Below are positions 36,947 to 58,489 of a stretch of DNA of 64,000 bases, piece after piece (within the stretch, counting starts at the first letter, position 1; each line of letters opens with the position of its first letter). The stretch covers positions 4,962,501-5,026,500 of the forward strand of contig NC_092317.1 in the NCBI RefSeq assembly GCF_036785885.1. The letters run 5' to 3'. A program made the position numbers and the translations under genes. Below the pieces are notes generated by a model. That model saw only the letters and a list, made by a program, of their open reading frames with translations. It ran no database searches and had not been told where the DNA came from. Source of the DNA: Coffea arabica (Eukaryota > Streptophyta > Magnoliopsida > Gentianales > Rubiaceae).

Positions 36947-38640
36947 TTTTTTTTTTCAACAAACGTTAATATCATTGTATATATTAACACTTGATAATAT
37001 AAGGGTTAATCACAAAAAGAGGCCTCAGCCCTCCAATCATTGTTGGCTGCTTCTGTTAGCCAAGTTGGGAAGTTGTTTTCCCAATCAATGTCATTAACTA
37101 GTTGTGTTGCAAAATATGCTAGCCTATGACCTCTTACATTAGCTGATCTAGGTACAAAAGAGACTTTGCATTGTTCAAAACCTTTAACTAGGTCCTCAAT
37201 GTCTTCCAGAATAGTTGCTATATGATCATCCTGCACATTGTTGCTTTTGATCATGTCGATTGCCGTTTTGCAGTCTGACAACACTTCTATTTTCCCCCAA
37301 CCTGCTTGTCTTGCCATTTGGAGTGCCATCCTAATGGTTAAGGTTTCTTCCATTAGTGCCTCTCCCTTTTTTGTCTCCATTACTCCTCTTGCTCTAATGA
37401 TATTTTTTGCCCAATTCCTTACTATTATTCCTTTTCCTGTTCTGATTATTTCTCTTGCTTCTCCTTTTTGTTGTTCGAACTCTAACCTGTTCCCTGCTTT
37501 CCATATCTGCCATAATATGTTTGCTGTTAGAGTGATTCGTTCCTTTCCCTTTGCCATTGTCCCAGTTTGAACTACTGCTTCCCACCATTTCCACAGGTTG
37601 TTTTGAAGATCATGTAATCCTTCCCATCTCACTGGTGCTATGCTCCATACTATTTGAGCGATTAGACATTGAAAGAAAAAGAGTTCCATCATTTCTACTT
37701 CCTCCCCACACACACTGCAAATTTTGTCTCCTTTGTCTGTTCTGTTGTGGATTGTTTCTTTGATAGCTAAGCTATTCTGCAAGCACCTCCAAATGAAATG
37801 TTTCAATTCGTGCTTCAAGTTCAGCTTTCAGAGTTGTTTCCAAATGCTATGCTTTTTGATCTCCCAACTTGTTTCCTCTCCTATGCTTTCTCTTCTTCTT
37901 TCGTTTCTCCTTTCTTGCACAGCATTTGCATAGCTTGTCTTCACTGTGTACACCTCAGACTTTGAAAAGCTCCAGAAGAACCTATCTTTTCTTTTGAAGC
38001 AACTCAGTGGCATGTTGATTATATGCATTCTATCCTCTGGATTGAAAATTTGTTGCAGGATTTATGTGTTCCATCTTCCTTCTTTTATTAGCTGGTTCAC
38101 AGTTTCGATCTGACAGTTTGGAGGGCATCTTGTGGTTATTTTCCCTGATTTCGATCCCATTAACCATCTGTCCTTCCATATGTTCACCTGGCATCCTTTT
38201 CCTTCTCTTTTCCACAGACCTCTTTGTATCAATCTCCACGCACTATGTATGCTTTTCCATGTCCATGAAGCTGATTCAGGAGGGATGGTTTCAAAAGCAT
38301 TTGGGTCCTTTAGATACTTTGCTTTGATCACTTTACTCATTAGCAAATTTAGGGAAGTGATAATTCGCCAAAGTTGCTTAGCAAGTAAAGCTTCATTCAA
38401 AGCTTCTAAATCTTTGAATTCCTTTGACTTTAGACAATTTCTTCCAACTTATCCAATGCATTTTCCAGTCCTGCTGGCCACTTCCCTACCAGAAGTTCAC
38501 TATACACTTGCATATATCCTTGCAAAGTCTTTTAGGCAACTTAAAGCAAGTCATGGCATAATTTAGCATTGCTAGAATCGCTGACTTGATCAGGACTTTC
38601 TTCCCAGCTTAAAATCCATCTACCAGCAAAAGAAAATAAA
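36947..38640 (-). mobile_element. LINE (plant L1-type) remnant, minus strand, 5'-truncated
   Basis: On the minus strand, in order: end of the reverse transcriptase (AGKKVLIKSAILAMLNYAMT, about 38620-38540) and the linker typical of plant LINEs (LLAKQLWRIIT, SWTWKSIHSAW, 38400-38062). A zinc-knuckle-like region with CSVCGEEVEMMELFFFQC (37730-37650) and the second half of an RNase H domain (LSDCKTAIDMI, VPRSANVRGHRLAYFA) follow. The T run at 36947-36956 is the inverted poly(A) tail. Frames shift several times, and the N-terminal RNase H part with the first catalytic Asp is deleted between NWAKNIIRARG and the following MEETLTIRMAL. Inactive. Confidence 0.85.
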
Positions 38641-38789
38641 CTAGAAATATATAGGTTTATAGTGGTGTACCACAGCAACAATAAGACATAATTGCTTGCT
38701 TGAGAAATGTATGTTAGCAATTCAATATTGGATGTTACCGCTGTTTCATTGATAAACCAACGTTGAGTTAATGGAGATTGAATTCCACA

Positions 38790-41653
38790 ACAAGCTTGGT
38801 TCACGCACCCAGGATATGAAAAGGTAGTTGCAGAAGCCTGGAAAGATGGCGAGGAGAATTTAGAAGGCAAACTTCAAATGCTAAGAATGAGGCTTAAGGA
38901 ATGGAATCTATTAGTTTTTGAAAATATTTTTCACAGGAAAAGGAGATGCAAAGCGAGATTGGAAGGAATTCAAAAGATACTATGCAGTCAGTATTCGAGA
39001 AAGTTGGAAAAGTTAGAGGTGAAGCTAGTGGATGAGTACAATAAAATATTGGAGCAGGAGGAGATTTTCTGGCGGCAAAAGTTAAGGATAGAATGGCTGC
39101 AGTGGGGGGACAAAAATACTAAGTTTTTCCATACGTCAACAATAATTAGGAGAAGAAAGAACCAAATTACGAGCCTACGGGATGATGGTGGTAAGTGGCA
39201 TGATGATCCAGAGATCCTAAGGAGTATGGTACGGGATTATTTTTGTGATTTGTATCAAGAAAATGAGGAGGGAGAGGCTGGAGGATGTCCTACATTTGAT
39301 ATGTTCCCAAAATTGGATAGTAGGAGACTGGAAGCTTCGGGGAGACAGGTATGTGAGTATGAGATCAAGCAAGCTTTATTCAAAATGAATCCAAACAAGT
39401 CACCAGGGCCGAATGGAGTAAATGCGGGTTTTTATCAAGAGCACTGGGAGTTAGTAAGGCCCCAAATGGTCAGTTTTGTGAAAAAGGTATTTGAAGAGAG
39501 GATAATGCCGGATCATGTTAATAGCACACTTATCTCTTTAATACCAAAAGTGGAGTTTCCAGAAATGGTTTCTCAGTTCAGACCCATTTCGCTATGCAAT
39601 GTTTCCTATAAGGTGGTAACGAAGATTATAGTGGAAAGAATTCGGCCAATGATTCCTGAGCTAGTCAAGCAGAATCAATGCAGTTTTATTCCGAGCAGAC
39701 AAACAGTAGACAATATAATTATAGCTTAGGAGATTTTACACACTATGAGCAAGTGGAGGGGAAAGAAGGGCGGAATGGCAATTAAAGTAGATTTGGAAAA
39801 AGCGTATGATAGATTAAGATGGAGCTTTATACATCAGACTCTCAGGTTGGTAGGCTTCCCGGTAGGGCTAATTGAGCTAATCATGAACTGTGTCCAGGCG
39901 AGTGCCATGCAAGTCTTATGGAATGGAAAGAAAACTACACCATTTAAGCCAACTAGAGGGATACGGCAAGGCGACCCGCTATCACCGTATTTGTTTGCAT
40001 TATGTATGGAAAGGTTAGACCATATGATTAAAGAAGCAGTAGCACTGAAGGAGTGGAGACCAATTAAAGTATCTCGGAATGGCCCAGGTGTAGCTTATCT
40101 AAGCTTTGCAGATGATTTAATGTTGTTTGCAGAGGCAAGTATGGGACAAGTTGAGGTGATAGGGGATATCCTGGGTAATTTTTGCAAGCTGTCGGGGCAA
40201 AAGATAAATGTCAGCAAATCACAGATTTTCTACTCATTAAACGTACCCTGAAGTGCGAAAATGCAGATAAAAGGGAGATTTGGAATAGAGATCACGGTTG
40301 ACTTGGGAAAATACTTGGGTGTGCCTCTAATACATGGGAGGGTAACGAAAAGTACCTTTCGACCAGTTGTGGAGAAAGTCAAAAAATGACTAGTAGGCTG
40401 GCAAAAGCAAATACTGTCATTTGCAGGAAGGGCAACTCTGGTAAAGTCAGTGCTAGCTGCAACTCCATTATATATCATGCAAACGGCTATGTTGCCATGT
40501 TCAGTTCTAGATGAAATAGAGAGATGTGCAAGGGATTTTTTATGGGGGACCTCAATAGAGTACAGGAAAATCCATCATGTGAAATGGAGTACTGTGACAA
40601 GGGACAAAGAGGAAGGAGGACTTGGGATACGAAAAATGAGGGAGACCAATAGAGCAATTCTTGCTAAGTTGAACTGGAGAGCTCTGCAACACAAGGAGTC
40701 GTTATGGGTAAGGGTTCTTCGAAACAAATATAAAGAACCGGGAAGGAATGGGAGAAAATCCTTTGTTTGGAGGAGTATGGAGGAGGGGCAGAAGGTTTTG
40801 AGCAAAGAAGTAAGGTGGAAAGTGGGAAATGGGATGGATGTTAGATTTTGGAAGGACATATGGTTAGTAGAAAAGCCGTTAGTGGAAATGAGCGAAAGAG
40901 AAATTCCACAAGGAGAGATGCATAAGAGGGTCAGGGACTATTGGGTACTTGGGGAGGGTTGGAGTATGGATGAATTGGAGCTCTTCTTACCTATCCGAAT
41001 GTTAAGTAGGCTCGGGGAAGTATATTTACAAGAAGAGGGGACTAACAGGGATTTGCCAGTTTGGACTCTGGAACCCGGGGGAGTGTTTTCAACTAGAACT
41101 GCGTATAATCTGGAAAGCAATGAAGAAGCAGTCCCGGATCAAAAAGGTTGGGATCAAATTTGGAAGCAAAGAGGACCGGGCAGATTGCAGTTCGTAATGT
41201 GGTTGGCTAGACACCAAAGACTCTTAACTAATGCAGAAAAGAAGAGAAGACATCTCCAGAAATGTAGTTATTGCAAGATATGTGGGCAGGACCCGGAAAC
41301 GCAGCTCCATGCTTTAAGAGACTGTCCTTGGGCTAGAAAGATATGGTACACTCTAGTTCATCCAAAATTTTGGGAGGAATTTAACAGCAAGAGTGGAGAA
41401 GACTGGAACCTGAAGAGAGGTAATAAAGGCAAATGGGATCACTTCGACAGGCAGGCAGTTTTCCAACAGGTGGTGTACTCAATATGGGGGGGCAGGAATA
41501 ATTTTTGCATTAATATGGACAGCAGTAAGCTTGATAATCTAGATAAAATGATAGTGACACTGTTGGAATCTAATCAAAGAATGTTAGACAGGGAAGCTAG
41601 GAGCAGGGAAAGACAAACTATAAATATCGAATGGACTAAACCGGAGAGAGGTT
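38790..41653 (+). pseudogene. LINE reverse transcriptase, left piece
   Basis: Reads from WFTHPGYEKVVAEAWK through the linker (FFHTSTIIRRRKNQI) into a full reverse transcriptase: NKSPGPNG, FRPISLCNVSYK, KVDLEKAYDR, RQGDPLSPYLF and the catalytic FADD (about 40108-40119). The connection domain and a zinc knuckle (CSYCKICGQ...HALRDC) follow. Three nonsense codons break it: TAG at 39727-39729, TGA at 40249-40251 and TGA at 40387-40389. In each case a single C-to-T change from CAG or CGA would explain the stop. The piece ends at the MULE junction before the RNase H domain. Confidence 0.88.
40237..41653 (+). repeat. 1.4-kb LINE segment duplicated on the two sides of the MULE, left copy
   Basis: Aligned with 50183-51600 without gaps, I count about 13 substitutions. 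Both copies share the TGA stops corresponding to 40249 and 40387, so they derive from one already-decayed sequence. Confidence 0.9.
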
Positions 41654-41663
41654 TGACCAACTA

Positions 41664-41733
41664 TAATTACATTTACCTCCCCTGAGGTTTGACCAAATAA
41701 CGAATCGATCCCTGAGATTTGACCAAATAACAG
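41664..41733 (+). repeat. MULE left terminal inverted repeat
   Basis: Begins TAATTACATTTACCTCCC and contains GAGGTTTGACCAAATAAC and GAGATTTGACCAAATAAC about 28 bases apart. A 13-base copy of its inner part (GAGGTTTGACCAA) also lies across the junction with the LINE at 41648-41660. Confidence 0.9.
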
Positions 41734-42726
41734 ATTCCTCCCTCACACTAACTTCTGTCACTTATAAGTAACAGAAATAGCCAAAAGTCTGAATAACCCT
41801 TATTAATTTTCATCAAACTTTTAAGACATAAAAATAGAAATATGTACTTACAATTTTACCCTTTAGGCGGGAAACAAGACAGATAGCGACTTTATCACTT
41901 CAACCCCTACAATCCCAACATCAGATTATCATACTACACTCTCACTTTTCTTGTACTCTCTTTCCATGAAACCCTATGTTTCTATCGTTGCTTAATCCTT
42001 AAATCACTAAAATAAAACTCAAAAACTACAGTGCGTTGTCTACATATCAACATATTGTGGCTGGAGAAATTTTTCACAACAAAGGTTGTAGGTTCGGAAA
42101 GCTATTGGAGGCCTAAGCATAGTACTATCTTTAACTGATCATTTCTTGCATGGGTATTATATACTATTTGAACCAAAAAAATGAGTTCTGCATGCACGGA
42201 TCTAATATTTATATACATTAGATCCTTCTTAGTTTGATTTCTAGGACACAAATATGCTTCAAATTTAGGGGTTTTTGATTGTGATGCATCAATACAACAT
42301 TGCCAGCATTTTTGGTTGCTACTGCATGTATAATAGTTATATGGGTGGTGAACGTAGTCATAAATAACAAGAAATCCAGATTTAATAATGTAAATCTGGA
42401 GTTTTTGTGAAATTTTTTAATATATCACTTTTTTCTACATTGGCAAAATACATATGTAATTTTTAGTTGTTTGAACCACAATAAGGTTGTATTAGTCGTT
42501 TATCAAAATAGTTTTACAATTTAGGGTTTAATAGGAAATCTTTATTTATTTCCTGTTATGTCAGATTCCACGTTGATTCATATCTTCAAACTTAGTTGCA
42601 TGCAAATCAGTTTTTTCTCATCATATTAATGCTATTTGTTAATGAAGCACATGATAAACTTTGTTGTTTTCGTGGTTTTAGGCTGGACTTGCAAGTGTCT
42701 ACGACATTACTCTTCATTGTGAAAGC

Positions 42727-45700
42727 ATGAAGTTTGAACTAAGGAATATTGATCCCGATCGCTATTCTTACATTGACTTGTTATCTGATGTTTGTGAGAA
42801 TGTTTTGAATCGTATTTCTAGTCGACAAAATATCATGATTGCTTTATGTTGTGATATCCCTGGTACTGTGGAAACAATGAACATTGAAACTGATTCGGAT
42901 GTGCTGGAAATGGTTGGTTTACATAGGAGGAATGGACGTATCAATGTTTATGTTAGGCAGGTTTGTGATGATGTTCAAGAGAACTTGAATGAAAATGCTG
43001 GTAATGGGAACAATATTGATGGAAATGGAAATATTATGGGGCTGAATTTTAATAATATTAGTGCCAATGTTAATAATGATAATGAAAATAACACGGGAAT
43101 AGATGGTAGCAATGTTGATATTGCTATGAACTTTGAAGTGGTGGGTGTAAACTTCCATGGGACAGAGAGTAGCAATACCAAAAGGGCTGGTAAGAAGAAT
43201 TCAAAAGGTTGGGCAGAAGGAAATGCTAGACAAAATACTATAACTAGCAAAAGGTTGGGTAAAAGAAAGGAATTCGAAAATGTTTTGAATGGTGTTGATG
43301 CAGGGATCCAGGATGAAGTGGAAACTGATGATGAGCTATATGTTTATAGTGACAATGATGAGATAAGTGTTGACTTAGATGATGAACTATTTAGTACATT
43401 TGTACAAGAGGGATTGGAAAATGAGTTAGATTCTGGTGGAGACTTGTCTGATTATGAGTCCAATGATGAAGTTGAAGCTGAAAATGAGTCCGACAGTGAC
43501 TTGGAGGATGATTTAATGGGTGCATGCCTAAATATTGCTGAGTTTTCCATGCCTGAGGGAGAGAAATTTAGGCTCTTAAAGGGAATGATATTTGCAAATG
43601 TTGATACTTTTAGAAGGGTGCTATATGAATATAAAATTCAGTGGGGTTTTCCTCTAATTTTTTATAAAAATGAAAAGTCTAGAGTTACGGCGCATTGTGG
43701 CAATCAAGGTTGTGATTGGAGAGTACATGCTTCTCCAGCACCTGATAAGATGACATATATGGTAAAAACATGCACACCTGATCATACTTGTGTCATGAGT
43801 GAAAAAATTGTTGCTTCTGCCAAGTGGATTGCAAGAAAAATAATTGACCTATTGAGGGCAGATTCCACTGTTAAACCTGAGCTATTAAGGCATGAATTGG
43901 CTAAGTATGGTGTTTTTCCTACTGATATGCAGCTTTATAGAGCAAAGCAAAAGGCACAGGACATTATTGATGGTAGCCATGGTGATAGCTATAGCTTGCT
44001 GCCAAAGTATTGTGTCATGATTATGAATACAAATCCTGGTAGTATAGCTAAGATTCAATTTGAAATGACTTTGGCATCGGCTGTTCCTTCAGTTAAAGGA
44101 ATGTTTGTGGGGTTAGATGCACTAAAGAAAGGATTTTTTGATGGCTGCCTTCCTTTCATAGGATTTGATGGATGTCACTTGAAAGGGCCGTATGGAGGGG
44201 TTTTACTTTCTGCAATTGGTCTAGATGGAAATAATGGATTGTATCCTATTGCTTATGCCATTGTTGAGAGTAAGAATAAAGAAAGCTGGATGTTTTTCTT
44301 TGAATGGTTAGCTGCAATGCTTGATGACTTTCCAAGGGATAGGCCTTGGACTTTCATGACTGATAGGCAAAAAGTAAGATCTTAACAACTCATTCAATTA
44401 ATCAATCACTGATTTTGGGATTTTAACACATGTATTTTTTGACGTTTGTAGGGACTGATTGAAGCCATTAACTCTAAGGTACCATGGGCAGTGAACAGAA
44501 AGTGTTGCAGGCATATATATAGCAATTTTAGAGGCCGTTTTCCAGGAGTTATGCTTAGGCAATTATTTTGGCAAGCTTCAAGGGCTTACACTGAAGTAAA
44601 CTTTAAGGAGGCTATGGCCAAAATTAAGGATTTAAAACCTGCAGCCCACGAGTGGCTGGAGAAAATTCCTTATCACTTGTGGTCTAGGCATGCTTTCCTC
44701 ACAGATTTGAAGAATGATCACATCACAAACAACATTGCTGAATCTTTCAATCATTGGATAGGAGATCTAAGGGGTAAGAATGTGTTAACATTGCTGGACA
44801 ATATTCGATCTAAGTTGATGAGTAGGCTGCTAAAAAGATTTGAAAAAGGCTGTCTTTATAAGAATAATGTGGTTTCAAATGTGAAAAACAGACTTAATGT
44901 ACTTGCTAATGAATGTAGAAAGTGCACTATACTGCTTGCAAGTGGTAACGAATTCCAAGTGAAGGATTGTAATGTTTCTTACATTGTGAACATCAATGAG
45001 AGAACATGTGATTGCAAGGTATGGAACTTGTCTGGAATACCATGCAAGCAAGCAACAGCTGTTCTTATTAACAAGAGAGCAGATTTGGAAAGTTATTGTG
45101 ATTTTAGCAAGACAAAAGAATTTTACATCAGAGCATACAATGAAGTCATTCATCCAATCCCAGATGTAAAGTTTTGGCCACCTATTGAAGTGAATCCTTC
45201 AAAAGTACTACCACCAGTACTTAGAAGAAAAGCTGGCAGGCCAAGAAAGGCCCGGAGAAGGGAGCAAGGAGAAGCACCAGCTGTAGGCCAAGGAAAAAGA
45301 TCATCCACGCTGAAGTGTAGTTTGTGTCAACAATTTGGGCACAATAAAAGAGCTTGTGAAGGTGGTCCAAAGAGGGATAGAAAAGGCAATTTCAAGAGAA
45401 GAAATGTGGAGTGCACTATTCAAACTCTTACATTCTTACGTACCATGGACTGTAATCTTAAGCATTTTCTAACCTTGTTTTCATTCTTACTGAAGTTACT
45501 TGGTCAGACCAGTGGAATGGAACCTCGTGTATCTACTGGAACTAGCAGACCAACATCTACTTATTGTCCCACACAAGAATCAGTTACTCTACCTGCTGGA
45601 AGTACACAACCTCCCATTGAAGTCTCTCAGGTGACTTCTAATGTCATGTACTCAAATTCTCATATTTGTAGATTTTGCTAACTATAAACATGCATGAAAT

Positions 45701-45951
45701 TGTAGGGAGAAAGCAATACTAGACATGTTGCTTTATCTCAAACACATGAAGAAATGTTTGGGAGTTCAAGAGCTTCAAATCTACTGGGCAAAAATCTTGC
45801 TGCTATGGTCATTGGAAGAAGATCAGTTGCTGGCAACAACAATGGAGGGTCAATATCAGGATCTATTCCTACTTCAGCACAACCAGGGCCTACATCAACA
45901 TTGCCAGCAACTTCTGAAAAAAATTCTCAATCTAAATATGCAATGTTCTAG
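42727..45951 (+). CDS. MULE (MuDR-type) transposase, 3 exons, about 1,023 aa
   Basis: Cut-and-paste transposase of the Mutator superfamily. Exons: 42727-44373, 44452-45630, 45706-45951, all phase 0 with GT-AG introns. Domains: N-terminal region with a basic patch (about 155-185) and a long acidic stretch (about 200-260). A MuDR DNA-binding domain with C-x4-C and H-x-C residues (AHCGNQGCDWRVHA, CTPDHTC) follows, then the DDE core: Asp481 in FIGFDGCHLKG, Asp546 in FMTD, Glu646 in NNIAESFNHW. A SWIM zinc finger (CDC...GIPCKQA) comes next, but its expected His is Gln. A CCHC zinc knuckle (CSLCQQFGHNKRAC) and a Ser/Thr-rich tail end the protein. An alternative extra intron (about 45402-45507) would remove a hydrophobic stretch. 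No nonsense codon or frameshift interrupts the chosen exons, so the element may be or recently was autonomous. An upstream exon is possible. Confidence 0.88.
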
Positions 45952-46619
45952 CCTTCAGGCTTTGTTTACATATGCTTTTTGTTGACATGGTTGCAAATGA
46001 AGATAATTAGGATTCTCAGTCTATTGTGCTTGTACTTATTAGACTTTATGGCCATGTTATGGTCTTGTTGTTCTGTTGACGGTTCATAGCACATATGTGG
46101 TGCTGATACTGATAAAACTCTGTGACCAGTGTATGGTCTTTTTGTTCTTTTGATGATTCATAGCACAATGGAACTAAGTTTTGCTTGTTTCTCTGTTTGT
46201 TTTCACTAGCTCTTTTCAAGTGCTTGGTATGAGATATTTTAGATTTTATGCAAACTGTTGAGTGCAGCTGAGTGGTCACATATTGCATGATTTTCCAGCC
46301 GGATTAGATACAATTTGGGTTACCATTGAAATAGGAGAAATATTTTAGGAGAAAGCCAGAGTGAGTCGAGAGGCAGCAGCCAGGGTTATGCGGAAGAGAC
46401 TCAGGTTATTTTGCTGAAATGGAGTACGGTCTTGTGGGGCTTGTTATTAGCTTATGATAACATAAAGAAGAAAATAAAACATAAACGTCACTTTATAAAG
46501 GCAAGTGGTACTTGCTGTCTGTGTATATACCACAGTCTCATTTGGATTCCGTCCTCCTTCTCAACCTAAATTCTCAGCTTAGATTTTTATTCCAAACCCC
46601 TCAATTTTCTGATCTACGG

Positions 46620-46860
46620 CATCCAAACCAAGCCCCTCAAGATAACCCGACTCATGTCTTCAAGCCCCTCAAGCCCTTCAAGTCCCTCAAGCCCCTCAAG
46701 TTTCTGATCAGATATTGCTAGTGTTAACCCGACCCACGTCTTCAATGCCGCCGGCGTCACGGGTTGTCCCAACGTCGACTCACAGGTTGTCCCACAAAGT
46801 TGAGACGATCCGGACAAGTCTTCAATGCCGCCGGCGTCACGGATGGAACCAACGTCGACT
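46620..46860. repeat. short tandem and direct repeats inside the MULE
   Basis: Tandem CCCCTCAAG-type 9-mers at 46638-46700. Two copies of a 26-base unit starting GTCTTCAATGCCGCCGGCGT (46738 and 46818) each lead to CCAACGTCGACT. The local GC content is far above the rest of the MULE, which suggests acquired sequence, but I do not recognise the source. Confidence 0.5.
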
Positions 46861-47799
46861 GGTGCGGGTGAATTTTTGAGTATGATGCGGGTCGTCCACT
46901 CGGGTCGGGTGTTGGATTCAAGGAGAAGGAAAAACCTGCAACTTTTTGGATCTTTCTATTCCAAGATCAAAGCCATGGTGGGTTCTCTTTCCTTTTATCT
47001 TTTCATTCATTTTTGGTTTCCTATCTGAAATTCTAATAATTTATGTTTTAATTTTTTTATTTTTGGAAATTGTGATTAACTGAACTCAAGTTGTTATTTG
47101 GGTGTTTTCTTTTCTTTATATGGGATATTATTAATCTGTTTCATTAGATAGTGGATAGGCTGAATGGTTGTCAAGAACAGCATGCAATATGGTTTAATCC
47201 GAAAATGAGAAAGAATTGCGAATTGTGAATTTGTTAAGCTGGTGCCAATTTGATTATTGAAGAATTGTGAAGAATTGTGGTTTAATCTGTATCATTTGAT
47301 TATTGAAGTTTGAGTTTGGAACTGAAAGATGAGACTGGGAAGAATGTATTTCTGTATCCGAAAATGTTTTTTGTCACTTTTTTTGTCACTTTTTCTTTAA
47401 GAATTTCCGGGATTGAAATTTACTCTTCTTGTACCTTTGGTGATAGACATTCAAGTCATCTGAGGCTTTTAGTCTTCTATATTTCAGATGTGGTCTACTG
47501 TGCTCTCAATATAGTGCTTGATTATGTTGATTATGTTGATTAGTGGCGCTTGCTACTGCTTAGATATACCTTTTCTTGGAGCAATAGGCACTGATTTAGA
47601 AAGAATCTAGTCCTGCTGCATATCTCTGCAGGACATGAGGAAACTGATTCCAGCTATGTAGTTGTTTTCTTTAGAGGATGTGTGCTTGTTTTCTCCTTGA
47701 TTTAGTGGGAACAAGAGTATCTAAGTAGCTATCCTACAAGTCATTAATATGTACCATTCTCCCTAAATTGTATTTTGGTTTTCAGGTTGGGAAGCAAAT

Positions 47800-47885
47800 G
47801 CTGCTAAAAAGACTACTAGGGTAAAAAGACTACTGGGGTAACTATGGCTCCAGTAGGAGTGGTAAAAAGACTACTGGGGTAACTT
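47800..47885. repeat. AAAAAGACTACTGGGGTAAC repeats inside the MULE
   Basis: Three copies of a 15-20-base unit (about 47804, 47822 and 47864), the first with AGGG for GGGG, lie directly before the captured exon. Confidence 0.6.
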
Positions 47886-47918
47886 TGCTTGTTATAGACG
47901 TCCTGATCTCGTTTGCAG

Positions 47919-48245
47919 TGGTTGCTGGGATTTCTGAACTTCTGGCATAAAGGAGAGGTGCGAACCACAAGGGTGAGAGTCTTGCCATGGCATGTCTTTC
48001 TTGGCCACTACACATATGCTTTGGCAGTGGTAACAGCTGAGACAGGGCTTCTGGAAAAATTGACATTCTTGCAAACCAGAGGAGATGTATTGAGACGTTG
48101 CACCGAGTCAATGGTTGTGAACGGTTTAGGACTTGGATTGGCCCTTCTGAGTGGTATTGTAATATTAGCAGCAGTTTTACCAAAGCATGAAGCTCCACAC
48201 TTTAAGATGATGTACACAAACAACAAATGCTTGTCTTCTCAGTAA
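47919..48245 (+). pseudogene. captured last exon of a cytochrome b561 (transmembrane ascorbate ferrireductase)
   Basis: After an intact acceptor (TTTGCAG, ending 47918) the frame reads the C-terminal part of a plant cytochrome b561: WLLGFLNFWHKGEVRTTRVR, LPWHVFLGHYTYALAVVTAE, TGLLEKLTFLQ, ESMVVNGLGLGLALLSGIVI, ending in a TAA at 48243. It holds two predicted membrane helices and one conserved haem-region His (LPWH). Intact proteins pass electrons from ascorbate across a membrane to Fe3+ or monodehydroascorbate. Here no preceding exon for the other helices is visible; the fragment lies between transposase and terminal repeat, so it is host gene sequence carried by the transposon. The open frame is fully preserved. 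Confidence 0.85.
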
Positions 48246-50108
48246 CAATTATCCAAGTCTTTGTTATGAATAATTATTTTAATTGTTTGCATGAAATGAA
48301 GTAGACTATAAACAACTCGAAACAACCAAACGTTATACCACTGAAATAACACTAGAGGTTCCATTTCATCCAAGAACATTTACAACAAATCTTTGTAGCA
48401 TTTTAAACTAGACACAAAAGACATTTCCATCAGCTAACACATATGAGCCGTGAAAATCTAGAAAGCCAGAGATATTTCATTTGCGAAGCAGAGAGATATT
48501 TCCGAAAACTTCACTCTCTACTCAAGATGTTTACATTTCATCATTCCCTTATGAATGAATTACTATCTCATCATATATTAGCCAATTTTCATGGCAATCG
48601 ATGTTGTACCAGCTTATTCACAGACCCAAATGCAAGCTTCTCTAACTTGTCTAATCTCATTTTCTCAAATTTCCTTTGAAAGATAGTTCATTGCTTTCCA
48701 TTTTCCTCCTGCCACCAAATGGTCAGGATCAACTGATGTAACCCAAGCAGCGGATAAACTCTTGCAGCAATCTGGGCCAAGAAGGTTGTATTAAGAACAT
48801 TGATCTGAGGATTTATTTAAGTTCCTTGCACAAAACAGGAGTGGATACACACCAGGAAACCTAGCTTTCCTTTTAGCTGCCGTAGTAAACATCTCTCTTC
48901 ATATGTGAGATCACAAGAAGAAAGAGTGCTGAAGGAGCTGGTCCATCATTTAAAGATTCTCTCCCTTTCAAGAGAATAATGAGTAAAGAGAATCTGCAGT
49001 TGAAGCAGCTGATTTGCTGTCATTTGAAATTGGAAGTAAAATCAAATACTACAGTGGTAAATTACATACCGACGCTAGGCAACAATAATAGCAGGCGCAA
49101 AAACAGGTTCCCCTAAGTCTTATTCTAACAATTGCACAATAAATGCTTGGAAAAGTTGGAATCCAAAATCTATTGTACGTTAGATGCTTTGAGTGATTCT
49201 GGCGCTTTACTCTGGAAGACAGAATTTCCAACGTGTAAGAAATGGTTGAATGAAAAATCTCCAGAAAGCTTACCAAGAATGATACGAGTAACCATAACTC
49301 CTCTCAGACAGTAGGATCACCCCATCAACAGGCCATAATTCTGCTCAGCACCAAGGCTCTATAGACGACTTCTGTTGTGGGTGATGCTGCAGTAGTTGCA
49401 GTAAGTAAGTTGCTCTGTACCTAAAAGATAACAAGCACAGTAGACACAATGCATATTTGGTAGATGCAACAATCTGAGAATTTGCCCCTTTTTTTTTCAT
49501 TTACCACTCAGATTTCCACATAATGAAGTAATAGGCTTAAATATCAACGCAAGTTAACTCTGAGATCTGAGAATTCTATGCTGTCCAATCTGTAAACTAT
49601 GCAAGTAACATTGCAACATGTCTCGTGCTCAACCATTTTGTGCCAGTTCAAATGCAAGTAATCCAGATATATAACATCGCCAGGTCACGTTTCTACTTAT
49701 GTTAACTCACCATTACATTATGATTCGGAACCAGCACATGCTTACCTGATGTAGCGGCAAGTTGATTTTTACGCAAGTAGCTTGATTCTCTCCAAGTTTT
49801 GTTGTTGTTGTTCTCTTGAAGTTTTTGCTCGTTAAACTTGGGGAAAATGGGCTCTCTTTTTGTCCAGATAAAGGTAGGCAATGGGGATGTGTTTTTCTTC
49901 TCAAGTCAAACGTGATTGGGATGTAAATTATATATTTTTAATGAAAAGGGTATTTTCGGAACTATAATTAATCTTCATGACAGCTGGATACAATAAATGG
50001 CAATTTCGTCATTCCAAGTTTTCTTTTTCCTGATGTCAAGTACAATGACTAACGTCTCTTAACAGTAGGCGGGTGATTGTTAAATGTCTGTTTATTCAAA
50101 GGGGTGAA
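48246..50108. other. 3' part of the MULE, mostly non-coding
   Basis: No complete gene. A minus-strand piece at about 48687-48777 follows an acceptor-like TGGCCCAG and reads IAARVYPLLGLHQLILTIWW and a few more residues to a stop. It may be a second captured exon, but I cannot name it. Confidence 0.4.
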
Positions 50109-50178
50109 CTGTTATTTGGTCAAATCTCAGGGATCAATTCGTTATTTGGTCAAACCTCAAGGGAGGTAAATGTAATTA
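50109..50178 (-). repeat. MULE right terminal inverted repeat
   Basis: Inverse of 41664-41733 with two substitutions. The element's outermost bases AACCC end at 50182, and LINE sequence (TTAAACGTACCC, equal to 40237 onward) follows directly. Confidence 0.9.
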
Positions 50179-50182
50179 ACCC

Positions 50183-51600
50183 TTAAACGTACCCTGAAGT
50201 GCGAAAATGCAGATAAAAGGGAGATTTGGAATAGAGATCACGGTTGACTTGGGAAAATACTTGGGTGTGCCTCTAATACATGGGAGGGTAACGAAAAGTA
50301 CCTTTCGACCAGTTGTGGAGAAAGTCAAAAAATGACTAGTAGGCTGGCAAAAGCAAATACTGTCATTTGCAGGAAGGGCAACTCTGGTAAAGTCAGTGCT
50401 AGCTGCAACTCCATTATATATCATGCAAACGGCTATGTTGCCATGTTCAGTTCTAGATGAAATAGAGAGATGTGCAAGGGATTTTTTATGGGGGACCTCA
50501 ATAGAGTACAGGAAAATTCATCATGTGAAATGGAGTACTGTGACAAGGGACAAAGAGGAAGGAGGACTTGGGATACGAAAAATGAGGGAGACCAATAGAG
50601 CAATTCTTGCTAAGTTGAACTGGAGAGCTCTGCAACACAAGGAGTCGTTGTGGGTAAGGGTTCTTCGAAACAAATATAAAGAACCGGGAAGGAATGGGAG
50701 AAAATCCTTTGTTTGGAGGAGTATGGAGGAGGGGCAGAAGGTTTTGAGCAAAGAAGTAAGGTGGAAAGTGGGAAATGGGGTGGATGTTAGATTTTGGAAG
50801 GACATATGGTTAGTAGAAAAGCCGTTAGTGGAAATGAGCGAAAGGGAAATTCCACCAGGAGAGATGCATAAGAGGGTCAGGGACTATTGGGTACTTGGGG
50901 AGGGTTGGAGTATGGATGAATTGGAGCTCTTCTTACCTATCCGAATGTTAAGTAGGCTCAGGGACGTACATTTAGAAGAAGAGGGGACCAACAGGGATTT
51001 GCCAGTTTGGACTCTGGAACCCGGGGGAGTGTTTTCAACTAGAACTGCGTATAATCTGGAAAGCAATGAAGAAGCAGTCCCGGATCAAAAAGGTTGGGAT
51101 CAAATTTGGAAGCAAAGAGGACCGGGCAGATTGCAGTTCGTAATGTGGTTGGCTAGACACCAAAGACTCTTAACTAATGCAGAAAAGAAGAGAAGACATC
51201 TCCAGAAATGTAGTTATTGCAAGATATGTGGGCAGGACCCGGAAACGCAGCTCCATGCTTTAAGAGACTGTCCTTGGGCTAGAAAGATATGGTACACTCT
51301 AGTTCATCCAAAATTTTGGGCGGAATTTAACAGCAATAGTGGAGAAGACTGGAACCTGAAGAGAGGTAATAAAGGCAAATGGGATCACTTCGACAGGCAG
51401 GCAGTTTTCCAACAGGTGGTGTACTCAATATGGGGGGGCAGGAATAATTTTTGCATTAATATGGACAGCAGTAAGCTTGATAATCTAGATAAAATGATAG
51501 TGACACTGTTGGAATCTAATCAAAGAATGTTAGACAGGGAAGCTAGGAGCAGGGAAAGACAAACTATAAATATCGGATGGACTAAACCGGAGAGAGGTTG
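50183..51600 (+). repeat. 1.4-kb LINE segment duplicated on the two sides of the MULE, right copy
   Basis: Matches 40237-41653 at about 99%, including the two shared nonsense codons. Unlike the left copy it continues into the RNase H region and the LINE 3' end. Confidence 0.9.
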
Positions 51601-52084
51601 GATAAAGGTTAATGTAGATGGGGCGTATAGTTCCAGGAGTGGTGTTGCAGGGGCTGGCGGGCTCTTAAGAGATGAGTACGGAACATGGATTGGTGGTTTT
51701 TGGGCAAATCTGGGCCAGAGGACCAGTATTGGAGCTGAACTGTGGGCTATCTGGTTTAGAATGAAGACAGCCTGGGACAAGGGGTATAAGAAAGTAATCA
51801 TTGAAACGGATTCTAAAGTTAGTTTAAAGCTTATTGACCGGGAGCCAAATGAGAGCCCGCTCTTGGAGCAGATCAACCAGATTAGAGGGTTAAAGGGGCG
51901 ACGATGGGAATGTGAGGTAATACACCAATGGAGGGAGGGTAATCTGTGTGCGGATTGGTTAGCCAAGAGAAGCTTGAGTCTAGAGCCAGGAATTCAGGAG
52001 ATTGCGTCCCCACCTGAGGAGTTGAGGAAGTGGTTAGCATATGATGTAGTAGGTGTTACTATGCCTAGATTAGTTACCTTGTAA
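50183..52084 (+). pseudogene. LINE, right piece: end of RT, zinc knuckle and RNase H
   Basis: After the two inherited stops near 50193 and 50331 the frame is open from about 50396 to the TAA at 52082-52084. It covers the RT connection region, the zinc knuckle (CSYCKICGQ...HALRDC, about residues 272-300 of the open part) and a type-1 RNase H domain with its acidic residues in VNVDGAY, GAELWAI, IIETDSK and CADWLAK. The RNase H domain is intact here but absent from the left piece. A short 3' UTR and poly(A) tail follow at 52085-52124. Confidence 0.88.
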
Positions 52085-52134
52085 TGGGTCTAAAGCCCTC
52101 CTATCTAACCAAAAAAAAAAAAAAGAATTCCACA

Positions 52135-53477
52135 GACCTCTTTTTGAATTCAAAATCTCTCATTTATGGTTTTGAATTCAAAAATTTCCACTTACACTAA
52201 AAAAAATAAAATCCATAGAATATCCTCGAGACATCAAAATTAACTATCACATTGAAAAGACGCATTCAAGCGCTGCTCCATCCCACCATAGTATGCATAT
52301 ATCAAGTTTAATTAAAACTGTGAGAAGCTGATGGATACAAGTGAAGCTTCAAATATCAAGTACAAAATGTGAATATCATTTTATATACCATCGTTTAAAT
52401 TGCTTAAACACTCTAAATTATGGACCTTGATCAATTATGAAACCAACATACGAGCTTAAAAACTTATTCTGTAAAATGAAATGTCTTATGCAATAAACCG
52501 GTTAATAATTATTTTAAAAAATGCTACTAGAAGAGAATTGGCAATGGCCAATAGGCAGTAAAATCCTTGCATGTTATTGGATAAATATGTCTTCAACATT
52601 TTGTGAATCCTTAGTTGTTCTACATCGGATAGAAGAATCAGAAACATGGTCCTTTGAGAATAGATCGGTAGGAAAGTATTCAAAATTGCATCATAAATTT
52701 CCGGTTTTGAATTTTGTTATTGTGGTTAATTGTGTTCTTGAGATGACTAGCCATTGATTAGAAATATAGAGTACATCAATTCATCGTGCACTCACTCACA
52801 GTGACGAGGACTAGATTTCTCTTCATTGTATTCTTTATAATACAATTCAATGAAATTAGTTTAAAAATTATTTTCGAAAATCAACATCATTCATAATATA
52901 TTTCATCACATGTATTAGTCACGTACAAAGTTTTGTATGAAATTGACTAAGTTTTACCATCCAATTAATCATTACTAATTTTATTATATTATCAGTTCAT
53001 TTTTCATCATTCAAATGCTCTGTATAATTGATTGTCAAAATATTTTTTAAAAATGTGAATTTTTAGTATGTTAATTTAGAGATCAAAAGAAAAGTAATAG
53101 GAGTAACATAATTGGATGATTTCATAAAATTATAATAATTTAGACATAAATAAATAGAGAGGTTTCTAACGGAGAAGAACAATAGGAAAGTACCACCATT
53201 TCAATCCAAAAAGGCCAAAAAAAAAAGAGAGAAAATTATAAAGAATAAATGTTTTGCAATAATTGCAAGTTAATCAAACGTAATAATTGCAACATCAACC
53301 CCTACACTAAGCACATGTATTGGTCCACGTGGCAATTCCTCAAAGCGAAAGAGAAAGTTAAAAAAAAAAAAAAAAAAAAAATTTGGTGGGGTTCTCAACA
53401 TTCCCCTTTTCCCAGCTCAAATCTTCCTCAGACAGACTTTTCAGTTTTCACCATCCCAAACAAAAGCCAGGAAAAAG
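52135..53477. other. intergenic DNA upstream of AIP1
   Basis: AT-rich, no gene recognised. A long A run (53358-53379) lies about 100 bp before the AIP1 start, in what is likely promoter or leader. A pyrimidine-rich leader-like stretch follows (53400-53460). Confidence 0.5.
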
Positions 53478-56400
53478 ATGGCAGCTCAGCTCACCGAAAC
53501 GTATGCATGCGTACCCTCAACAGAAAGGGGTCGGGGCATCCTAATATCGGGTGACCCGAAATCCAATTCCATCCTTTACACAAACGGCCGATCCGTTATT
53601 ATCCGGTACCTTGACCGCCCGCTTGAAGTCGCCGTTTATGTCGAGCACGCTTATCCGGCTACCGTCGCTCGGTACTCCCCCAATGGCGAATGGATCGCCT
53701 CTGCTGATGTTTCGGGTGTGGTTCGGATCTGGGGGACCCATAACGACTTCGTCCTTAGAAATGAGTTCCGGGTTCTTTCGGGTCGGATTGATGATCTTCA
53801 ATGGTCACCTGATGGGTTAAGGATCGTTGCCTCTGGCGAAGGCAAAGGAAAATCTTTTGTTCGAGCTTTTATGTAAGTGGGTTTTCGAAAAAGTTCTAAT
53901 TTTTTTTTGGTCGTTTGAGCTTTGTTGATGGAAATTTGCCAAAGCTCTTTTGTCATTTATGCGAAATGTTTAATCTTTTGCACTCTTTCTTAATGTACTG
54001 TGGCATATACTTGTACCAGTTTTCTTGCATTGCTAAATTTGATAAAGAAGAAAGCTACTCTTGCAAAACTTTGTAGGAAATCGGTTAACGGATCATGTAT
54101 TTTGATATATTTAGCAGGACCCTGAAATTTAATCCCAAACATAGTTGCTGGTTTCGCTCATGCGTTCAAGTCAGTGCCTTTGTTTGTATCTTATTTTTAT
54201 GGTGTTTGTGAAGGTGGTCTCGAATATGTATGTGTTAAGTTGTAGTAATAAACGCTGAACTGACTTGTGCAGGTGGGATTCTGGAACTAATGTTGGAGAA
54301 TTTGATGGTCATTCAAGGAGGGTTTTGAGTTGTGATTTTAAGCCAACAAGACCATTCCGCATTGCAACCTGTGGAGAGGACTTCTTGGTGAACTTTTATG
54401 AAGGACCACCATTTAAATTCAAGCTATCGCACAGGTTCTTATCATTACTGTTATTAAGTGTTAGAATCAGTGAACGGCTCTAGCCTTCTAGATAACTTTA
54501 GAAATGATTGGGGGCATTGTTACTGCTACATGATGCATCTGATCAGGTGATATCCGCTAATCTGGGACAAGAGGAATTTGCAATCATTTTGGTACAGACA
54601 TTGAGGTTATACATGTAATAGCTCAACACTGAGGTAGGCACATAGAAGGGTGTAGAAGCAGGTCCCTCCTGTGCAGGAGGCCATAGTGAAACAGAAGTTT
54701 GATGCTAACTAGGGGTCCATACTAGAGTTGACCACAAATAAAGGCAAGGGGGAAATCAAATCATCTTAACTTTTTTGAAACAAAGCCATTTGATAAAGAG
54801 CTTTTGTGCTGAAATTAATGAACTTGTATCCATTACAAAATTTGTGAAGTTCAACATTTAGGATTCTCACATACCACTCTGGCAAAAATCTCCAACACAG
54901 AAGCCTGTAGGTGTGTATTATGTTTCTGACTGATGAAGACCTTTTGCTAATGCATTTTAGCATATAACGTGCTTGAGCATTTCATCAAATAGCTCTTGGT
55001 GGTACCACAAAAATGAGTATGCTTTTCATGTATTGGTCATCTTCCTAACCTGCAGGGATCATTCAAATTTTGTCAACTGTATAAGGTTTTCTCCAGATGG
55101 CAGCAAATTAATTAGTGTCAGCTCTGACAAGAAGGGCATACTCTATGATGCCAAAACTGGGGACATTTTAGGAGAGCTGTCATCTGAGGATGGTCATAAA
55201 GGTAGTATATATGCTGTAAGCTGGAGTCCTGATAGTAAGCAGGTAAACCTTTTCTCCATTTTCAATTGCTTTATCTTGCCTGTTGAAACTACAGCAGTCC
55301 CCCCGTGAACATTGGGAAGACAAAAAGATACAGGGATTATTAGTTTCAACTTAAAATGAAGCTCACTAACATCCTAAAATATTTTAGGTTTTTCAATATT
55401 AGTTTCCAAAATTAAATCTTGGAGCAAAATACTTGCTATTTCTTTGCACTCCACCACTCTCCCCCCTTAAAAAAAAACCAAAAAAAGGTCCCTTTCTCCA
55501 GGACTTCCCAGATTTAATCCTGGAGAAGGGTAGAAAATGTGGAAATTGATGGTTCTGCTGCCCAGTTAATTGGTCTTTGATGCTTGCATCAGCTTCCATC
55601 ATGGAAGACTATGGCATGAACTTGATCTATCAGGTACTTCGTCATGTGGATTGACAGGCAATTTATTTGGAAGAGGGTAGTTTAGAGTCAAGGGTCAATA
55701 ATTCGTACATCATTGAACTGCTCCCATTAGTGTTTTATGTTCTTATCAAGGATGTTGGACAAATATGCTTTTCTGATGAAACAAATCCACAATTGACTTG
55801 AGCTACTCCTTCATGCCTTTTCTTTTCAAAATATTTTGGTTTATAAAATGGTTGTCAGGAAATACAGACTTTTAAGAGAGTCTAAGGTTCTTGCATTAGT
55901 AAAATTTTGCAGTTTTTCTATTCTAAATTTAATTTTTCTTTCATTCTTTCGATGTACTAACTGATCTTGCTTGCATTTCAGGTACTAACTGTGTCTGCTG
56001 ACAAGACTGCCAAAGTATGGGAGATTTCTGATGGTGGTAATGGCAAGGTGAAGACGACGTTGACTTCTCCTGGATCTGGTGGAGTTGAGGACATGCTAGT
56101 TGGATGTCTATGGCAGAATGATCATATTGTCACTGTTTCTCTTGGGGGGACCATTTCTCTGTTCTCAGCTAGTGATCTTGATAAAACTCCAGTCTCATTT
56201 TCTGGACACATGAAGAATGTCAATTCATTAGCTGTGGTTAAGAACAACAAAATCATATTGTCTAGCAGCTATGATGGTTTAATAGTTAAATGGGTTCAAG
56301 GCATTGGATATTGTGGTAAATTAGAGAGGAAAGTGAATGCTCAGATAAAATGTTTTGCAGCAGTTGAAGAACAAATTGTTACATCATCATTTGACAACAA

Positions 56401-58489
56401 GGCAATCTCTCTCTCTCTCTCTCTCTCGCTATTCCTTCTGTCTTAATATGGCCCTATTTTGCGTTTGGATGTTTTTCTGCGTTACTGTTTTTGCTTTTTT
56501 GGGCATGGAGCAGGGGAAGTGTGTTTGTACAAGTAGTAATAGGCCCAAATTTAAGGTTTGCCTGCACTCTAAAAAGGCTTTCCAAATGTTTTAAGCGGAC
56601 ACTTTTTTTTTTCCAAAGAAATTATTTCCTGTCACGTCAAGAAATTACTTTTTTGATCATCAGGCATATTGTATGGCTTTACTTGTTGATTTAACAGGTT
56701 CATTTATTCTGGTAGCATCCTGTCATTCTTTTGATGAGTTACTACTAATAATGGTACAAAAAAAAATCTTTTAATATTCCTCCACAATTTCGAAAATCAA
56801 GTATCATACTTGTTGGCGACATATCTGCTTACATGTGTCATAAATTCAAATTTCTATCCCCGTGTTCTCTCACTTGTGCTATTGTTACTTCTTTAGATTG
56901 ATTTTTCGACGTATTTCATGCACACTTTGAGTTTTCATCTTTCTAGTCAATTGTTTAGAGAGCTGAGCTGAATATGAGGACGAAATAGACTAGCATCTCA
57001 CTTAAGAGATCAAATCTTGACCCTATTTCCTTTTTCTACATTAGTATTGTTCAACAACATATATTCTAAACCCTTCCATTTCTGCCTTCTGAAGTTAATA
57101 TTCTGGTAAACTTTGATTACAGACTTTCTTGATTGTTCAAAAAATATAGTTTAAAAAACTGGAACCTTGATTGTTGTAATCTATGATTTGACTACTGGGA
57201 AGAAAGTCAGGCATCTTTGTGATTAAATTAAACGAATTAGTGATGTTAGAGGGCATATAGGTTCTTAATGCTTACTATTCTACTTTCTGGTGTAGATTTG
57301 GAGAGTTCCTTTACTCGAAGATCAGTGCGGAGATGGAGATTGTATTGATGTTGGCAGTCAACCGAAGGACTTGAGCATTGCCCATCTATCTCCTGAAGTG
57401 GCCTTGGTCTCAATTGATACAGGAGTAGTCCTCCTTCATGGTACGCAGGTGGTGTCAACTGTTAATCTTGGGTTTCCTGTAACAGCCTGTGCAATATCAC
57501 CTGATGGTACTGAAGCCATTGTGGGTGGTCAAGATGGTAAGCTGCACTTGTATTCTGTAAATGGCGATAGTCTTGCAGAAGAGGCTGTTCTTGAAAAGCA
57601 TCGGGGGGCTATTACTGTCATTCGTTACTCTCCAGATGTTTCCATGTTTGCTTCAGCTGATGTTAATCGAGAAGCTGTTGTGTGGGATCGTGCTTCCCGT
57701 GAGGTACTAAATTGGGATCTTTTTCATCAGTACATAGTTTGCTAAGCATGATCTAATTATTGCAGGATCTTAGCAACTTTGAGTTGAAGTTAGAGCTCTG
57801 ATATTTTTGTTATTAACTTCAGGTCAAAGAAAACATCTTGAATGCTTGAGCTTTTTCTAATGATAATTCACTGAGGCTAGTATCTGAAAATGATTTAATT
57901 ACATCTTCATTTAGGTTCATTTTGATGCCTTGAGTTTCATGCTCTGCTAATTTAGGCATTGGATAGCAACTAATGTTGAGTGTGAAAGTTTAGAGAGTGA
58001 AGACATATTTAGTGTAGAGAGATTTTTTCTAATAAGTTGCTATTGTTCATGCTTGATACTGGTTGAAACATAAGCTGTTAGCTCCTGACTAACCAAATAA
58101 TTTGTTTCATATGTCTTTGTGTCATTTGAGATATCCAAATTTTTCATTCACGGAATCATCTTAAATTTACAAAATTTCTTATTGTATCGAATATCTGATG
58201 TGAATGCTATTGGGCTTTCTATTTTTTACAGGTAAAGCTTAAGAATATGTTGTATCACACTGCCCGTATAAACTGCTTGGCATGGTCCCCTGATAGCAGC
58301 GTGGTTGCTACTGGATCACTTGATACCTGTGTTATTGTATATGATATAAACAAGCCAGCATCGAGCAGGATAACCATAAAGGGAGCTCATTTGGGTGGTG
58401 TGTATGGATTAGCATTCACAGATGAACGGACTGTGGTTAGTTCTGGAGAGGATGCATGTGTTCGCATGTGGAGGATAACTCCACAGTAA
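53478..58489 (+). CDS. AIP1: actin-interacting protein 1 (AIP1/WDR1), complete, 6 exons
   Basis: Cytosolic WD40 protein that works with ADF/cofilin to sever and disassemble actin filaments. Exons: 53478-53872, 54273-54434, 55056-55242, 55982-56401, 57296-57703, 58232-58489. Phases agree throughout and give 609 aa, the normal AIP1 length, which folds as two seven-bladed propellers. Characteristic segments in order: [20 protein letters not shown] at the start, [91 protein letters not shown], and [13 protein letters not shown] at the end. Five of the structures are simple, but intron 4 begins GC rather than GT (AAG|GCAATC) and is followed at once by a CT microsatellite. No other donor keeps the family sequence FDNK-IWR. 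No sign of damage. Confidence 0.95.
56402..57295 (+). other. GC-AG intron 4 of AIP1
   Basis: Donor AAG|GCAATC, acceptor TGTAG. GC-AG introns are a minor but normal class, usually with strong matches around the donor, as here. (CT)n begins five bases in (56406-56428). Confidence 0.75.

Follow-up and report, generated by a model that had tools for sequence, protein, structure and literature searches.

Locus and sequences

The stretch analysed here, referred to as the window, comprises 64,000 nucleotides (nt) of Coffea arabica DNA with no N (C8:4962501-5026500, inside a 48.75-Mb contig). It carries a long interspersed nuclear element (LINE) that is interrupted by a Mutator-like element (MULE), and the LINE sequence adjoining the MULE is present twice, once on each side. 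All coordinates are positions in the window unless a contig is named. Further copies were searched for in a genome of 1.198 Gb (131 contigs). The features of the locus, including the terminal inverted repeats (TIRs) of the MULE, the target site duplication (TSD) of the LINE and the open reading frames (ORFs), are as follows:

38780-38789, plus strand: LINE TSD, left copy, GAATTCCACA (exact match to 52125-52134)
38790-40236, plus strand: LINE left of the duplication, 5'-truncated, reverse transcriptase region (Pfam RVT_1 in ORFs 38782-39729 and 39730-40251; alignment to the C5 LINE)
40237-41653, plus strand: left copy of the duplicated LINE segment, 1417 bp, probably the newly copied one (13 differences from 50183-51599)
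40237-40245, plus strand: presumed original 9-bp MULE target duplication, TTAAACGTA (abutted by the clean right MULE end; 9 bp is the habit of the family; present in both copies anyway)
41654-41663, plus strand: filler at the left join, 10 nt, TGACCAACTA (TIR alignment, sibling comparison)
41664-50182, plus strand: MULE, 8519 bp as preserved, outer GGGT absent on the left and complete on the right (TIR alignment, sibling comparison)
41664-41743, plus strand: left TIR, eroded by 4 nt (TIR alignment, sibling comparison)
42682-45681, plus strand: MULE transposase in two open stretches, 42682-44385 and 44452-45681 (Pfam DBD_Tnp_Mut, MULE, SWIM)
50100-50182, minus strand: right TIR with nothing lost from its end, minus-strand sequence GGGTTAATTACATTTACC (TIR alignment, sibling comparison)
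50183-51599, plus strand: right copy of the duplicated LINE segment, probably the original (self-BLAST, base-by-base list, alignment)
51600-52124, plus strand: remainder of the LINE after the right copy, with the RNase H-like end (ORF 50336-52084 has Pfam zf-RVT and RVT_3)
52111-52124, plus strand: LINE poly-A, 14 nt
52125-52134, plus strand: LINE TSD, right copy (exact match to 38780-38789)

Duplicated LINE segment

The segment at 40237-41653 recurs in direct orientation at 50183-51599 over 1417 bp, with 13 substitutions and no gaps (99.1% identity), according to a base-by-base list and an alignment. A BLAST search of the window against itself returned a slightly longer direct match (40237-41656 and 50183-51602, 1420 bp, 14 mismatches, no gaps, E = 0), the final three columns of which are junction bases; hence the true length is 1417 bp. 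A chance origin of the repeat was excluded by its length and identity. The duplication starts exactly at the clean end of the MULE, the left copy running on leftwards into the LINE and the right copy rightwards. The initial annotation of this DNA had described a direct LINE duplication of about 1.4 kb with about 13 differences around the MULE, and both the self-BLAST and the alignment agree with it. Its edges at 40237, 41653 and 50183 were kept; the right edge, placed at 51600, lay one base too far and was corrected to 51599.

The 10-bp TSD of the LINE lies in front of the element and, as an exact match, directly behind the poly-A, so that one poly-A and one target duplication enclose the entire structure. 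The nearest LINE in the genome (C5, locus L070) is homologous from 38789 onward. When the flanks were joined without the insert, they gave a single collinear alignment to the C5 LINE over 3402 columns, with 91.4% identity via the right copy and 91.3% via the left. Both copies carry TGA at 40249/50195 and again at 40387/50333, the two nonsense codons that had been noted earlier. The initial annotation had also named stops common to all copies of this LINE as an observation that would speak for two insertions; in a comparison with six other copies (L003-L008), the exact codons were seen only in the window pair. At the first site, the closest relative L003 has TAG, L004, L006, L007 and L008 have TGG, and L005 has a gap; at the second, L003 has CGA, the same four copies have AGA, and L005 again has a gap. 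The flanks are therefore judged to be one decayed LINE and not two insertions, as had been proposed, because the LINE TSD encloses the whole, the flanks without the insert follow the C5 LINE in one collinear piece, and the stop codons are private to the pair.

The MULE and its two joins

The inserted element is classified as a MULE, despite the absent TSD, from its transposase, its TIRs and its siblings elsewhere in the genome. The transposase domains were recovered (DBD_Tnp_Mut 8.4e-13, MULE 1.4e-9, SWIM 2.3e-6), and the gap between the two open stretches resembles a GT-AG intron (sequence at 44360-44465). The TIRs are about 80 bp long and 93.75% identical. A 9-bp target duplication was not found at this element: GACCAACTA on the left and TTAAACGTA on the right match at 3/9 positions.

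The right end is complete (...AATTAACCC) and abuts the LINE from position 40237 (TTAAACGTA onward), so the clean right end claimed for this position was recovered from the junction sequence. At the left end, siblings of 98-99% identity on C18, C11, C70 and C21 read GGGT followed by TAATTACATTT, and those on C10 and C1 have GGGT followed by TAATTAC as well. In the window, TAATTACATTT is preceded by TGACCAACTA, and the full join reads ...GAGAGAGGTT, TGACCAACTA, TAATTACATTT. The family match begins at 41664 for five of the six siblings; the reported match of the C1 sibling starts further in. The loss of the outer GGGT had already been recognised and was upheld against all six siblings. The left end had further been described as joined to LINE position 41653, where the LINE does stop; the 10-nt filler between LINE and MULE had been missed.

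The GAGGTT of the LINE and the filler behind it form GAGGTTTGACCAA, which is identical to MULE TIR sequence inside both the left and the right end. Of 20,000 random 10-nt fillers, none matched 13 nt of the left 100 bp of the MULE. The left join can be divided into a 6-nt microhomology (GAGGTT), seven templated nt (TGACCAA), CTA, and a loss of 4 nt from the MULE. We take GAGGTTTGACCAA across the join as a mark of templated end joining. Because the filler matches the TIR, a MULE end was most likely already present when the left join was formed.

The MULE also contains a cytochrome b561 gene fragment at 47907-48245 (Pfam Cytochrom_B561, 6.2e-13) and is in this respect Pack-MULE-like. The region 48011-48469 is common to the window MULE and the C11 sibling at 99%, so the capture probably predates the split of the two. 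The parts of the two elements that match do so at 98-99%; the interior regions 46431-48010 and 48470-49694 gave no BLASTN match to the C11 sibling at E 1e-5.

Template and age of the duplication

The duplicated segment has at least 25 matches in the assembly. Among the matches listed, the next best for each window copy is L003, at about 91% (90-91%), and no copy besides the window pair exceeds about 91%. For the divergent patch at 40980-41080, the single match other than the window pair lies on C5, at 84%. On both counts, a paralogous template in the assembly was rejected. Because no other copy above about 91% was found, the template was most likely the same locus on a MULE-free sister or homologous chromosome. 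The locus thus combines a direct duplication that starts at the break and was apparently copied from the same locus with microhomology and a templated insertion at the join (GAGGTT; TGACCAA), which is the combination sought for synthesis-dependent strand annealing (SDSA) completed by end joining of the polymerase theta (Pol-theta) type.

The two copies have diverged by 0.92% (95% interval 0.49-1.57%), i.e. 0.46% per lineage. The window MULE carries 12 private changes in 2137 bp relative to six siblings, one of which was aligned over 1608 columns; the resulting 0.56% (95% interval 0.29-0.98%) is an upper limit for the changes since insertion, as some of them may be older. Private counts at the right end were excluded, since the interior of the window MULE differs there from the siblings. 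As copy divergence and private changes agree (the 95% intervals overlap), the duplication and the MULE insertion are judged to be of about equal age; a large allelic difference from before the event need not be assumed. A failed integration of the second MULE end would be slightly favoured over a much later break, because a MULE-free sister is naturally at hand right after insertion.

Survey of the MULE family

The survey covered 35 elements with both ends placeable (25 + 10), a non-random set found by searches with the ends of the window MULE. Flanks of about 1.5 kb (25 elements) or 1.3 kb (10 elements) were compared; in C20b, C21, C20c and C11b, one flank measured only 169-299 bp, and a long duplication could be missed there. 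Element boundaries were allowed to shift by one base, and 8/9 or 9/9 matches were counted as a TSD. On this scoring, 28 of the 35 members have a 9-bp TSD, five of them (C70, C1, C15a, C12, C14) in A, T or AT runs, where matches come cheap; the 9-bp duplication assumed to be usual for a MULE is thus usual in this family. The seven elements without a TSD are the window element, C20, C19, C22, C21, C10c and C1b.

Direct flank matches longer than 100 bp that reach the element ends were found twice (2/35), in the window (1417 bp) and in C20 (about 610 bp, 97%), and both of these elements belong to the seven without a TSD. Short or displaced matches were observed in C11a (35 bp), C15a (89 bp), C15d and C5 (24 bp) and C14b (67 bp, 70%). 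The C11 sibling with the 35-bp match was rejected as a further case: joining its flanks revealed two 118-bp repeats older than the insertion, which lies in the second of them and has an intact 9-bp TSD.

The architecture of C20 mirrors that of the window. On the left, the flank copy stops at a clean element end (GGGTTCATTAC); on the right, the element is eroded beyond GGGAGGT, and the flank copy starts about 610 bp upstream of the insertion point. The C20 flank is a dispersed repeat with at least nine further copies at 94-97% among the matches listed. Six of the seven further copies fetched extend upstream past the join, and therefore the right copy begins inside the repeat and not at a natural end of it. 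The two flank copies differ from each other at 13/601 positions and from L071 at 13/601 and 14/601, with one shared private site. Because their mutual similarity does not exceed that to L071, C20 may reflect a paralogous template, an old event or some other meeting of two repeat copies, and it is regarded as a doubtful candidate for a second long flank duplication.

Two further observations were made among the family matches. Five matches to the left region of the MULE (G000 C15, L030-L034), each at 91%, are spaced steadily at about 34.9 kb, which suggests a large tandem array carrying a piece of the MULE. Several members among L058-L067 (C14, C7, C2, C15, C5) have two tandem TIR units at an end and in this resemble the MULEs with multiple long TIRs reported in PMC3310237.

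Proposed mechanism

With fair probability, the locus is a scar left by the repair of a break at a MULE end, which would have been patched by copying a MULE-free site and then closed by end joining. First, the MULE became attached through its right end to LINE position 40237, as its clean end shows. The chromosome would then have been open at the left end of the MULE, either with the second end never integrated or after a later transposase cut. The left LINE end may have invaded a MULE-free copy of the locus, on either the homologue or the sister chromatid, where synthesis ran about 1.4 kb beyond the insertion point; of this step, the same-locus template is supported by the genomic comparison, and the invasion is presumed. 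The anatomy suggests that the extended strand was unable to anneal as in SDSA, since it faced MULE DNA across the break. GAGGTT would then have paired with the TIR, 7 nt would have been copied from it, and the join would have been closed with loss of the outer GGGT, presumably by an enzyme of the Pol-theta type. This would leave the order LINE, copy 1, MULE, copy 2, LINE, and the left join would lack a 9-bp duplication. Both the size of the duplication and the structure of the join fit theta-mediated joining of failed SDSA intermediates.

Repair of a break at the left MULE end on a MULE-free sister or homologue had been suggested in the initial annotation, and it gains support from the single LINE and from the lack of any other copy above about 91% among the matches listed. 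Two elements are new. The 10-nt filler, with 7 nt copied from the TIR via a 6-nt microhomology, points to the joining step, and repair is likely to have ended this way because a strand copied from a MULE-free template finds no complement at a MULE end.

Several observations weigh against this repair account. The locus is known from assembled sequence alone, and the break and the strand invasion are themselves inferences. Templating explains seven of the ten filler nt and leaves CTA (41661-41663) unexplained. When the 13 differences were polarised with L003-L008 as outgroups, nine were derived on the left copy, three on the right and one (41043) was ambiguous; the left excess is not significant (P = 0.15). 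A 30-bp stretch (41014-41043 / 50960-50989) holds five of the 13 (P ~0.0009 under uniform placement), with derived states on both copies, a cluster for which the repair model does not account. Finally, five of the seven TSD-less family members have no long flank duplication, and therefore TSD loss has other causes too. Error-prone synthesis of the left copy was considered as well and rejected, since nine against three derived changes is not a significant difference.

Alternative transposition, as hybrid element insertion or between sister chromatids, would have the left MULE end insert at about LINE position 41653 on the sister or homologue while the right end stays at 40237; a duplication and its reciprocal deletion would result. 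This produces the observed topology, and with reversed Ac ends in maize the process is documented, with 8-bp target duplications at the breakpoints (PMC3744419). Intact ends and a target duplication at the breakpoints are, however, not seen here. A clean event should keep the GGGT, which is gone, and should not leave a partly templated filler; these two features largely refute the clean form, which would have to be followed at that end by a further event resembling repair. We regard this route as unlikely. A similarly low probability is given to two independent breaks, one at the left MULE end and one at LINE position 41653 on the sister or homologue, that were cross-joined by end joining (unequal exchange) without 1.4 kb of repair synthesis. 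The product and the kind of join would be identical, but the second break must have coincided 1.4 kb away, and no mark of a break site was seen at 41653.

Two haplotypes stitched in tandem by the assembler would also give a repeat of this kind, the 1% difference being within the allelic range and the structure being taken from the assembly. Against such an artefact, which we consider very improbable, stands the filler: it partly matches the TIR, occurs at none of the compared sibling left ends (C18, C11, C70, C21) and would not be invented by an overlap assembler. Moreover, the window has no N, and no third near-identical copy is present among the at least 25 matches listed.

Plant tandem duplications with filler are known, for example from PMC3014980, and the LINE could have been duplicated first and received the MULE later at the seam. 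The MULE would then need to have hit the seam to the base, and a 9-bp duplication would be expected in place of the 3/9 match between GACCAACTA and TTAAACGTA; the partly TIR-matching filler also makes it most likely that a MULE end was present at the joining. This order of events is refuted unless the left end was rearranged again afterwards, and its chances are slight. Two independent insertions of one LINE subfamily, conceivable because these LINEs are dispersed (at least 25 matches to the segment), are already refuted and can practically be dismissed: the copies are 99.1% identical to each other and at most about 91% to others among the matches listed, they share two private stop codons, one LINE TSD surrounds them both, and collinearity with the C5 LINE is kept across the joined flanks.

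As a tentative extension, breaks at MULE ends that are repaired on a MULE-free template might recurrently yield, as a built-in outcome, 'giant target duplications' around an element of which one end is clean and the other eroded. C20 would be the mirror-image second case (2/35), and we hold this generalisation to be rather doubtful.

Neighbouring sequences

Upstream of the LINE, remnants of another, older LINE lie on the minus strand at 37006-38448, with Pfam zf-RVT and RVT_3 in 37006-37827 and a further open frame at 38062-38448. A 16-bp sequence in its coding part, TTCCACAGACCTCTTT (38210-38225), recurs exactly at 52128-52143, just past the poly-A of the younger LINE; we have no explanation for this match. 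Downstream, a WD40-repeat gene occupies 53274-57745 (Pfam WD40 in 53274-53876; further open frames), which presumably resembles plant actin-interacting protein 1.

Related systems and significance

For the Drosophila P element, Preston, Sved and Engels (1996) are said to have described hybrid element insertion with a flanking direct duplication of neighbouring DNA. The transposon ends reportedly stay intact there, whereas here one end is eroded and filled.

Tandem duplications in C. elegans (helq-1; Kamp et al. 2021, PMC8654963) range from about 100 bp to 10 kb with a median of about 1 kb, show microhomology and occasional templated insertions, and were explained by theta-mediated joining of failed SDSA intermediates. 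The present locus resembles them in its direct duplication on the 1-kb scale, its microhomology and templated insertion, and its same-locus template. It differs in that the copies meet in C. elegans and are separated here by an 8.5-kb transposon, because the break lay at the transposon end. According to the same source, HELQ is absent from plants, in which templated insertions of a patchwork kind are very common.

The nearest plant precedents found are judged to be the maize p1 alleles P1-rw1077 and P1-rr (PMC3014980, PMC2686159), which share MULE-associated break repair with filler copied from nearby. P1-rr has a 1,269-bp tandem duplication containing MULE fragments, and a MULE at a duplication junction has been proposed as the trigger of the p gene duplication. 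In maize, however, MULE fragments remain and the P1-rr duplication has been explained by unequal crossover at 8 bp, whereas here a whole MULE parts the two target copies. Reversed-ends transposition and re-replication of maize Ac/Ds likewise give direct duplications with transposon ends at the breakpoints (PMC3744419, PMC4270019), and aborted replication is followed by non-homologous or microhomology joins through several repair routes (PMC4270019). Those events differ in using the ends of two elements and in leaving 8-bp target duplications; the re-replicated segments span 4.8-18.9 kb, with one allele of at least 36 kb (PMC3744419, PMC4270019). Pack-TIR gap filling (FoSTeST) also repairs breaks in TIR elements by template switching at microhomology, but the copied DNA lands inside the element and not, as here, as flanking target DNA outside it (PMC8277862).

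In a fixed-term search of titles and abstracts of the open literature, a whole MULE between two long target copies with one end eroded and filled was not found described, which is no claim of its absence in print. The ingredients are known, and their configuration is unusual and seemingly rarely documented. If the proposed mechanism is true, the locus freezes a repair choice in which homologous copying started, was blocked by the transposon at the other end and was closed by end joining. Such loci would be recognisable from anatomy alone: the flank is directly duplicated, one element end is eroded while the other is clean, the filler stems from the element, and a short target duplication is lacking. 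They could be counted across genomes, and the copy lengths would measure repair-synthesis tracts. DNA transposons would then be able to duplicate adjacent DNA without a second element.

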